The notes beneath the pieces are model-generated. The model saw only the letters and a list, made by a program, of their open reading frames with translations, was not told the origin of the DNA and made no database searches. The position numbers and the translations under genes are program-made. A stretch of 64,000 bases of DNA, from contig NZ_CP034879.1 in NCBI RefSeq assembly GCF_005081945.1, positions 563,363 to 627,362 on the forward strand, written 5' to 3'. This document shows positions 50,148 through 52,500 of this stretch, piece by piece. Source of the stretch: Buchnera aphidicola (Brachycaudus cardui). Lineage in GTDB: Bacteria; Pseudomonadota; Gammaproteobacteria; Enterobacterales; Enterobacteriaceae. Within the stretch, counting starts at the first letter, position 1. Each line of letters begins with the position of its first letter.

Positions 50148-51074
50148 ATGATTTTTTATAATTCTTATAAATGGATAGTATTTTTTATTTTTTTAATCAC
50201 ATTTCCAATTCTAGCTAGTAATAAAAAAGAAGATAGTTTAAAAAAATCATTTATTTTTTTTAAAAATAATAAATTTAATAAAATATGAAAAAAAAATAAA
50301 AAAACTAAAGTAGTTTATTCTTCTAAAAAAAAATTAATAACTAAAAATTATACAACAAAAAATAAAAACAATATTTCATTAAAAAAAATAATTATAGCAA
50401 TAGATGCAGGACATGGAGGACAAGATCCAGGAGCAATAGGTTATACAGGATTAAAAGAAAAAACAGTTAATATAAAAATCGCACTTCAAATTAAGAAATT
50501 ACTAAATAATAATAGAATGTTTCATGCAATTCTAACACGTAACAATGACTCTTATCTTTCACTTAAAAAAAGAAGACAATTTCTTACAAAGAATCACATA
50601 AATTTATTAGTTTCTATTCACGCAGATTCTTCTAAAAAACAATATGTATCCGGAGCATCCGTATGGATAATTTCTAATACTAGAATGCATCGTGAAATTA
50701 ATAATTATTTAAAAAATAATAATTCTATAATATGTTTTTCTAAAAATATTCAGAATATCTTTAATGAAAATAAATATGATACATTTTTAAAAAAAACTAT
50801 TCTTGATTTACAATTTAATAATTTTCAAAAACTAGAGTTAGATTTATCCAAACATATCTTTGAACAGCTTAAAAAAAATATAAAATTACATAAAATACAT
50901 CCAAATTATGCTAGTTTAGGAATATTAAGTTGTATAAATATACCTGCTATATTAATTGAAACTGGATTTGTTACAAATTTTTTAGAAGAAAAAAAACTAA
51001 GAACAACAGATTACCAAAATAAAATTGCTAAATCTATTTATTTAGCTTTAAAAAATTATTTTTTGGAGTTTTGA
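50148..51074 (+). pseudogene. amiB: N-acetylmuramoyl-L-alanine amidase AmiB, interrupted by an in-frame TGA
   Basis: AmiB splits septal peptidoglycan during cell separation. AAGGAA precedes ATG 50148, which opens a clear signal peptide (hydrophobic residues 9-23 ending near LAS). Codon 47 is TGA (50286-50288), then the same frame runs open to 51074. It contains the zinc ligands His89 in IDAGHGGQDPGA, Glu in LKEKTVN, His in VSIHADSS, and the catalytic Glu in ILIETGFVTN. Read through it would be 308 residues, short of the 445 of E. coli because the AMIN and LysM parts are missing. A T8 and an A9 run flank the stop. The first ATG after it lies inside the domain at 50517. Confidence 0.85.
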
Positions 51075-51166: not shown

Positions 51167-51385
51167 TTATATTATTTTTTTTTTAGTCAAATTAAAACGT
51201 TTTTTAAATCTTTCAACACGACCTCCAGTATCAATAACTCTTTGCTTTCCTGTATAGAATGGATGACATTTTGCACATATATCTAAATGTAAATTATGAC
51301 CAATAGTAGAAAAAATTTCAATTATGTTTCCACAAGAACAAGTAGCTGTTATCTTAGAATAGTGAGGATGAATTTTTTTTTTCAT
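51167..51385 (-). CDS. rpmE: 50S ribosomal protein L31
   Basis: L31 bridges the two ribosomal subunits. The start [20 protein letters not shown] gives 72 residues (E. coli 70). It is the zinc-binding form, with Cys16, Cys18, Cys37 and Cys40 in CSCG and DICAKCHPF. The frame is open 15 codons upstream without family support. It is convergent with amiB and divergent from ftsN; in E. coli rpmE is also near the cytR-ftsN-hslVU block. Confidence 0.96.
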
Positions 51386-51481: not shown

Positions 51482-51754
51482 ATGATATATATAAAATATA
51501 TGTATGATGATAAAAATAAAATTAATTCTATGTATTTTAAAAAAAATAATAAACATAAAAAAAAGATAAAATTGCACGTATGTGTATTTTTTATTTTAAC
51601 ATCTATGTTTATTTCCCTGATTTTTTTCAATATAGATTTAAAACATTTTTCTAAAAAAGATAAAATATTAATAAAACATCATCAAAACGAAAAGGTATTA
51701 CCTCCTAAACCAAAAGAAAAATGGACATATATTCGAAAATTAGAAAGTTTATAA
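51482..51754 (+). CDS. ftsN: Minimal FtsN: membrane anchor plus essential periplasmic motif, no SPOR domain
   Basis: FtsN triggers septal peptidoglycan synthesis in the divisome. This 90-residue protein has a basic cytoplasmic start (Lys-rich to residue 30), one membrane segment (about 31-50), and a short periplasmic tail ending VLPPKPKEKWTYIRKLESL. That tail aligns with residues 74-92 of E. coli FtsN (LPPKPEERWRYIKELESR), its essential segment, and keeps Trp81, Tyr83 and Leu87, equivalent to Trp83, Tyr85 and Leu89. The long linker and SPOR domain (E. coli 319 residues) are absent, with no remnant in the next 215 bp. Location just upstream of hslVU is as in E. coli. The start could also be ATG 51500 or 51530. 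Confidence 0.85.
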   Translation: MIYIKYMYDDKNKINSMYFKKNNKHKKKIKLHVCVFFILTSMFISLIFFNIDLKHFSKKDKILIKHHQNEKVLPPKPKEKWTYIRKLESL

Positions 51755-51969: not shown

Positions 51970-52500
51970 GTGACCACAATATTAAGTGTAAGATTAAAAA
52001 ACAAAGTAGTAATTGGAGGTGATGGACAGGCAACTTTAGGTAATACCATTATGAAAAGTAATGTTAAAAAAATTAGATCTCTTTATCATGAAAAAGTCAT
52101 TGCTGGCTTCGCAGGTGGTACAGCCGATGCATTTACTTTATTTGAAATGTTTGAAAAAAAATTAGCGATGTATCAAGGTCAATTACAACGTGCTGCAATT
52201 GAATTAGCTAAAGATTGGCGATCTGATCGAATGTTACGAAAATTAGAAGCATTACTAGCAGTAGCAGATAAAGAAACTTCATTAATAATTACAGGTAATG
52301 GAGATGTAATACAACCTGAAGATGACTTAATAGCTATAGGATCAGGTGGTGCATATGCTCAATCTTCTGCTCGAGCATTACTAGATAATACAGATTTAGA
52401 TGCAAATCAAATTGTAAAAAAATCATTAAATATTGCAGCAAATATTTGTATTTATACAAATCATACTTTTACTATAAAAGAACTATTTTCAGAAAAATAA
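51970..52500 (+). CDS. hslV: HslV, ATP-dependent protease proteolytic subunit
   Basis: HslV is the threonine protease of the HslUV complex. The 176 residues equal E. coli. The start codon is GTG, preceded by AGAGG; the initiator is removed to expose the catalytic Thr2 in [23 protein letters not shown] and [15 protein letters not shown] are conserved. It is 11 bp upstream of hslU, so the two are translated together. In E. coli the operon is heat-shock induced; I cannot identify such a promoter here. Confidence 0.96.

Follow-up and report, generated by a model that had tools for sequence, protein, structure and literature searches.

A short ftsN gene between rpmE and hslV

FtsN is a protein that triggers cell division, and in Buchnera, the symbiont of aphids, it is trimmed. 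The window, by which we mean the whole 64-kb stretch of DNA analysed here out of a genome of 654,826 bases, carries between rpmE and hslV a forward-strand open reading frame (ORF; 51482..51754) of 90 amino acids, whose C-terminus reads ...LPPKPKEKWTYIRKLESL*. In E. coli K-12 the genes run hslV-ftsN-cytR-priA-rpmE; in the window, rpmE and hslV enclose neither cytR nor priA, and since the ORF fills this interval in matching order, we assign it to the place of ftsN, minus cytR and priA. An earlier, sequence-only reading of this stretch had proposed a 90-residue product. The ORF is real, but the gene likely starts at the ATG at 51500, which occupies a conserved place 18 bases downstream of 51482 and 84 codons before the ORF end, so that the first six codons of the ORF probably lie outside the real gene. 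The database-predicted protein (P0122) also has 84 residues.

Table 1. The reduced ftsN gene, its parts and its neighbours (window coordinates)
Feature	Coordinates	Strand	Basis
rpmE, neighbour	51167..51385	-	
Reduced ftsN gene, 84 aa	51500..51754	+	conserved ATG place, FtsN-model match, alignment
Lys-rich cytoplasmic start lacking the R/K-D-Y motif known from E. coli FtsN	51500..51568	+	alignment; start-region comparison
Single membrane anchor	51569..51631	+	hydrophobic stretch judged by eye
Periplasmic linker, weak constraint jointly with the anchor	51632..51697	+	anchor plus linker dN/dS 0.68
E segment LPPKPKEKWTYIRKLESL = E. coli FtsN 75-92	51698..51751	+	alignment, dN/dS
Stop codon, same position in 31/31 genus loci (TAA 29, TAG 2)	51752..51754	+	
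hslV, neighbour	51970..52500	+	

Two NCBIfam models of FtsN match the ORF, TIGR02223 over residues 25-89 (E 2.7e-4) and NF008179 over residues 40-89 (E 1.4e-4); with 21.5 of 525 and 20.6 of 107.65 bits, respectively, both matches miss the curated cut-offs, as is expected when thresholds for the whole protein are applied to a fragment. The E segment aligns without gaps to E. coli K-12 FtsN, its last residue corresponding to E. coli 92, and, judged by eye from the alignment, a single membrane span follows a short basic cytoplasmic tail, as in FtsN. The E segment of the E. coli protein is Leu75-Gln93 (PMC7939390, PMC10390529), and alanine scanning singled out W83, Y85 and L89 as the most sensitive residues of FtsN (PMC10390529). 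The Buchnera form thus shares with E. coli FtsN the place beside hslV, the single anchor and an E segment of the pattern LPPKP..W.YI..L with these three residues, and differs from it in having no long linker, no SPOR domain and no visible R/K-D-Y motif, and in ending at 92. This bears out what had been read from the letters, namely that the product ends beside the limit of the E. coli essential segment, keeps the key Trp, Tyr and Leu, and amounts to an anchor plus essential segment close to the minimal construct found by experiment.

A Pfam search of the short ORF gave no significant match, an Rfam search found nothing, and a tblastn search of plasmid records returned no match. Eleven PDB sequences matched at E values up to 10, among them DNA polymerase gamma subunit 2 and an enkurin, and were taken as chance; the best PDB match (E 3.4e-5) is a chain with two copies of one 12-bit stretch, outside the E segment. 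Scanning for promoters and terminators gave five promoter-like sites, against 8.5 in shuffles, and zero terminators. The FtsN of a second Buchnera genome (G012, protein P0126) is a 'hypothetical protein' in its NCBI label and a 'Cell division protein FtsN' in its UniRef label, so the name is already present in a database. Upstream of rpmE, the window also holds a 185-residue ORF (50517-51074), a putative amiB; amidases of the AmiB kind produce the ligand of SPOR domains, and the window's genome nonetheless has no SPOR match.

Conservation in Buchnera and trimming in other genera

Our genus sample comprised 36 genomes, 35 of which yielded a locus with hslV. The motif ORF is kept at the same place in 31 of the 36; ftsN is absent in three (G004, G018 and G024), contains a masked run in G003, and gave no match in G029, where hslV was unmatched as well. 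A run of 66 stop-free codons has a mean chance of 0.0005, with each locus taken at its own base composition, and together with the retention at the same place this means that the ORF is open by more than chance. True loss looks different: the corresponding loci L033-L035 present 254-463 bases without any motif. All 31 loci agree in W83, Y85, L89, the terminal Leu and the position of the stop, and the common stop may go back to a single inherited event. Pooled dN/dS is 0.134 for the 18 codons of the E segment and 0.684 for the anchor plus linker (15 disjoint pairs, covering 30 of the 31 loci, with L032 unpaired; Fisher p 1.8e-9 on pooled, rounded counts), so the constraint that the sequence-only reading had anticipated for the terminal motif in sister strains is present. 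That most of the genus conserves FtsN argues that septal synthesis plays a part where the gene is retained. The unpaired locus (genome G013) has an altered PPKP stretch (KPSQITEKWKYIKKLKNL); it keeps ftsN, and amiB was not found there beside rpmE.

The SPOR domain (PF05036) had been called missing, and an intact copy elsewhere in the genome had been named as the finding to look for. At E <= 0.001 there was no match in the ORF's own genome or in any of the 36 genus genomes, and the control gave matches in 6 of 14 genomes, including E. coli; given this absence of a C-terminal SPOR domain, we call the protein a reduced variant of FtsN. The R/K-D-Y motif, which binds FtsA in E. coli (PMC7613929), was seen near the start in none of the 13 in-frame N-termini of the genus. 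A 2023 review (PMC10591338) scores ftsN at 0% in 38 Aphidinae Buchnera genomes, infers alternative mechanisms and states that the bacteria covered encode no FtsN homologue. In our sample, 31 of 36 genomes retain the essential segment; full-length models miss the short form, whose scores fall under both cut-offs.

An ATG in frame with the anchor is present in 13 of the 31 loci, 79-84 codons from the end, and the remaining 18 have none between 75 and 92 codons from the end. In these 18, the conserved start region stands in another frame (10 loci), is interrupted by a stop (2) or was not recognised (6), and the longest nearby A-run measures 9-19 bases in 17 of them and 6 in L029; A-runs of 11-13 also occur at some intact loci, and in L019 and L022 a TTG lies in frame 70 codons before the end. 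For lack of an in-frame ATG before the anchor, the product of such loci would need slippage or another start, unless the A-runs carry assembly errors. Slippage at A-runs is the likely source where the start is out of frame, and assembly error within long A-runs may alternatively have caused the broken starts; homopolymer frameshifts in Buchnera have been published before (PMC3164680). Where both members of a pair have broken starts, the E segment is still constrained, though less: its pN/pS is 0.21 in six such pairs, 0.085 in four pairs with both starts in frame and 0.175 in five mixed pairs.

FtsN trimming is repeated in other genera. Among 392 genomes of the GTDB family, TIGR02223 matched at E <= 0.01 in 298 and over its cut-off in 272, and we re-searched 28 matching genomes of 0.6-2.4 Mb together with 80 of the 91 genomes from other genera that had given no match. 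An FtsN with the W.Y...L pattern and no SPOR domain in the same ORF was found in 21 genomes of up to 2 Mb, which belong to 15 genera besides Buchnera. In 22 rows, Buchnera counting as one, the end position is 91-95 in nine rows from seven genera and 100-177 in the others. A SPOR domain is kept elsewhere in the genome in 9 of the 21 and was not found in 12, and the R/K-D-Y motif was seen, in a by-eye count on alignment A2, in 12 of 16 truncated rows of other genera.

Mapped on a tree of HslV plus partial HslU (51 rows), the SPOR label changes eight times, at least five of these changes being forced by well-supported branches, a rough count owing to the long symbiont branches. Omitted from the tree were L085, which is interrupted and lacks hslV; L088, L089, L101 and L110, whose loci gave no hslV match; L077 and L106, whose genomes are already represented by L105 and L078; 18 of the 31 ORF-bearing genus loci; and 23 of the 30 loci of free-living family members (L040-L069). 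The SPOR label was given to L079 despite its interrupted frame; omitting it or labelling it SPOR-less still gives eight changes. The A2 search matched 23 of the 80 genomes at E <= 0.05, and four matches with E <= 9e-9 were accepted as real; four of the other 19 (E 0.0015-0.05), L111-L114, were inspected, and three of these showed no FtsN. The remaining one, L113 in the reduced genome G088, has a KDYV-like piece with stops upstream of hslV and looks like a decayed ftsN. Seven loci of more distant gammaproteobacteria from a scan of genome contigs were left out of the results.

Partner proteins and the genomes without ftsN

The essential segment of FtsN has remained nearly unchanged while its partner proteins shrank too, and the truncation noticed from the sequence belongs to a broader reduction of the activation module. 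FtsQ (PF03799) is unmatched in the window's genome, and the gap between ddlB and ftsA, 102-410 bases long, holds no FtsQ match in any of the 30 genus loci examined. FtsB, read in the window's genome alone, is a 71-residue ORF whose likeness to E. coli FtsB stops at residue 61; the FtsQ-binding part of the E. coli protein is residues 64-87 (PMC6134095). Buchnera FtsL stops at a position matching E. coli 96-107, soon past the activation segment, whereas E. coli FtsL reaches 121. Of the 34 readable genomes, 15 have the C-terminal part of FtsL in frame with the start of the gene and 19 do not. In the window's genome, a run of 15 A interrupts ftsL (L037:17840-18043, reverse strand, outside the window), and the AWI segment continues in another frame. 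murF of the same genome (L037:13089-14467, reverse strand, outside the window) is split into two ORFs; independent inactivation of murF in Buchnera lineages has already been published (PMC3164680).

Two positions of the synthase and its activator carry residues known from E. coli alleles. All 34 readable genomes have Lys at FtsL 88, next to an E87 that stays Glu in all 34, including the FtsN-less G018. A search with E. coli FtsL gave 496 relatives, of which 120 were listed; E88 is found in all 115 of these with a readable motif (five lacked one). At FtsW 269, 26 of 35 genomes have Ile and nine have Met; in a protein search with FtsW, of which 120 matches were listed out of 7980, the best 44 (Buchnera where named) have Ile in 30 and Met in 14, and the other 76 all have Met. 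In E. coli, FtsL E88K is less dependent on FtsN (PMC7733951), and FtsW M269I lets cells divide with reduced FtsN function, as a weak bypass or one effective when overproduced (PMC8078798); the two papers describe neither allele as FtsN-free. In a published model, the E segment touches FtsL 86, 87 and 90 and FtsI 86 and 168 (PMC10390529). FtsI Y168 is present in 34 of 35 Buchnera genomes, the exception being the FtsN-less G004, where it is replaced by Leu.

The three genomes without ftsN have fared differently. In G024, a search of the usual place between ftsA and rsmH found none of ddlB, murC, murG, ftsW, murD, mraY, murF, murE, ftsI and ftsL; the site of this block (L196:146-5834) spans 5.7 kb at 15% GC, with no N and no ORF of 60 residues. 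At the ftsN locus of this genome (L034), amiB was also not found beside rpmE. G004 retains the mur genes, ftsW and ftsI, with one stop in murF, and its FtsL stops before the AWI segment. G018 retains the mur-ftsW-ftsI-ftsL block, with murC and murE each matched in two pieces, and carries FtsL N83E, I85M and A90M as well as FtsI V86L, each unique among the genomes read. Since G004 and G018 keep FtsW and FtsI without FtsN, FtsN is dispensable in some Buchnera. Both have FtsW I269, and FtsW Y289 occurs in 2 of 35 genomes, exactly these two. We gave no weight to Y289, since Q, L and R at this position fail to rescue FtsN depletion in E. coli; the residue is N, D, Y or H in Buchnera, and the activating residue in E. 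coli is G (PMC8078798).

The co-variation of FtsN loss with changes in the partners is suggestive, with three loss genomes in all. We compared these with 33 'keepers', that is, all genomes but the three losses, including G003 with its partly masked ftsN and G029 without an ftsN or hslV match. Of the FtsI sites that do not vary among keepers, G004 has changed 9 of 157 and G018 6 of 154, both above the highest keeper rate of 0.038, and part of the partner change may therefore be general fast evolution. At the corresponding FtsW sites, 2 of 143 are changed in G004 and 7 of 143 in G018, both below the highest keeper rate of 0.064.

Interpretation of the short FtsN

In our view, the ORF most probably encodes a working, minimal FtsN descended from a full-length protein. 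An ancestor of the genus would have lost the linker and SPOR domain, and the short form would since have been maintained by purifying selection acting on the E segment. The anchor would position the E segment in the periplasm, where the PPKP stretch together with W83, Y85 and L89 may insert between FtsI and the FtsL AWI segment and so switch FtsW on, SPOR-based localisation to denuded glycan having presumably been abandoned. From loci with an out-of-frame start region, the protein would probably be expressed via slippage at the A-runs.

It is conceivable that the ORF is instead a decaying remnant, open by accident, as the 18 loci without an in-frame ATG ahead of the anchor, the weaker E-segment constraint where both starts are broken and the three losses of ftsN might suggest. 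A remnant would not, however, be expected to show a pN/pS of 0.21 even in the six both-broken pairs or the same W, Y, L and L in 31 of 31 loci, nor do the motif-free intervals of the real losses resemble the retained gene, which makes this reading highly improbable. The segment could also have been retained for another partner than FtsL and FtsI, chiefly the class A synthase PBP1b: an EFtsN fragment is reported in a paper's title to bind and activate PBP1b, a major peptidoglycan synthase (PMC7939390), and PBP1A/B is scored in 66% of Aphidinae Buchnera (PMC10591338). We consider this improbable too, because it is the contact sites on FtsL and FtsI that are altered or gone in the three FtsN-less genomes.

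More weight attaches to two readings of the partner residues. If FtsL K88 and FtsW I269 kept the synthase on, the FtsN signal would be needed no longer and FtsN would be on its way out. This would fit the frequency of these residues in the genus (34 of 34 and 26 of 35), set against E88 and M269 throughout the readable listed FtsL relatives and the lower-ranked FtsW matches, as well as I269 in both FtsN-less genomes that keep FtsW and the three losses inside the genus; but W, Y and L are invariant in 31 loci that come mostly from I269 genomes, and in E. coli E88K is just less dependent on FtsN and M269I a weak or overproduction-reliant bypass (PMC7733951, PMC8078798), so that we regard it as unlikely. 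A reading that stops only somewhat short of probable is that AT-biased mutation alone produced K88, I269 and the stop after the E segment, and that the match with laboratory alleles has no adaptive meaning; the DNA is very AT-rich, with a spacer GC of 0.13. At the codon level, replacing Glu by Lys or Met by Ile adds A or T, so both residues run in the direction of this bias and may be neutral. Caulobacter FtsW and RodA also have Ile at the position of M269 (PMC8078798), whereas the adjacent FtsL E87 has stayed Glu in every genome in which 88 is Lys. Such a mutational origin is compatible with the working short FtsN that we favour.

Beyond the minimal FtsN itself, we tentatively propose, as a possible rather than probable arrangement, a stripped Buchnera switch, with no FtsQ, an FtsB that stops short of its FtsQ-binding part (seen in this genome), an FtsL trimmed behind the activation segment and fixed for K88, mostly FtsW I269 and an FtsN of anchor plus E segment, in which a near-on synthase with a lowered need for FtsN would require the short E segment and no SPOR targeting. 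If so, nature would have fixed the very substitutions known as FtsN bypasses, and lineages losing FtsN would have changed its docking sites. The genus offers, in many genomes and, with the other genera, several lineages, a natural test of which part of FtsN division needs, in a switch without detectable FtsQ or SPOR. With K88 and I269 occurring naturally, the idea of a pre-activated synthase can be tested directly in E. coli K-12.

The trimming as such is known from Serratia symbiotica, also an aphid symbiont with a small part of ftsN left, for which a truncated ftsN was published with the same reasoning, citing E. coli FtsN 1-119 as sufficient for division (PMC5013485); that lineage is separate, and for Buchnera we find a stop common to the genus and extend the analysis to constraint, losses and partners. 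The E-segment constructs of E. coli (PMC9525312, PMC10390529) contain a nearly identical stretch, the Buchnera form being one residue short of 93, but they were made in the laboratory and either overproduced or placed in a superfission strain, whereas the Buchnera form is a natural gene; likewise, the residues of the E. coli bypass alleles FtsL E88K and FtsW M269I occur naturally in Buchnera, the former in all 34 readable genomes and the latter in 26 of 35. Smith et al. 2022 (PMC9116674) do not use the words ftsN, ftsL or ftsQ in their text, and our literature search, in which coverage of subscription journals was thin, found no work on the short Buchnera FtsN with its partners and no experimental trial of a natural FtsN ending at residue 92.

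FtsA is present in all 36 genus genomes. Its position 286 (E. coli numbering), the one changed in the E. coli allele R286W, holds Lys at 23 of the 31 loci read (L130-L159 plus L037, where L037 and L130 belong to one genome) and is varied in the others.
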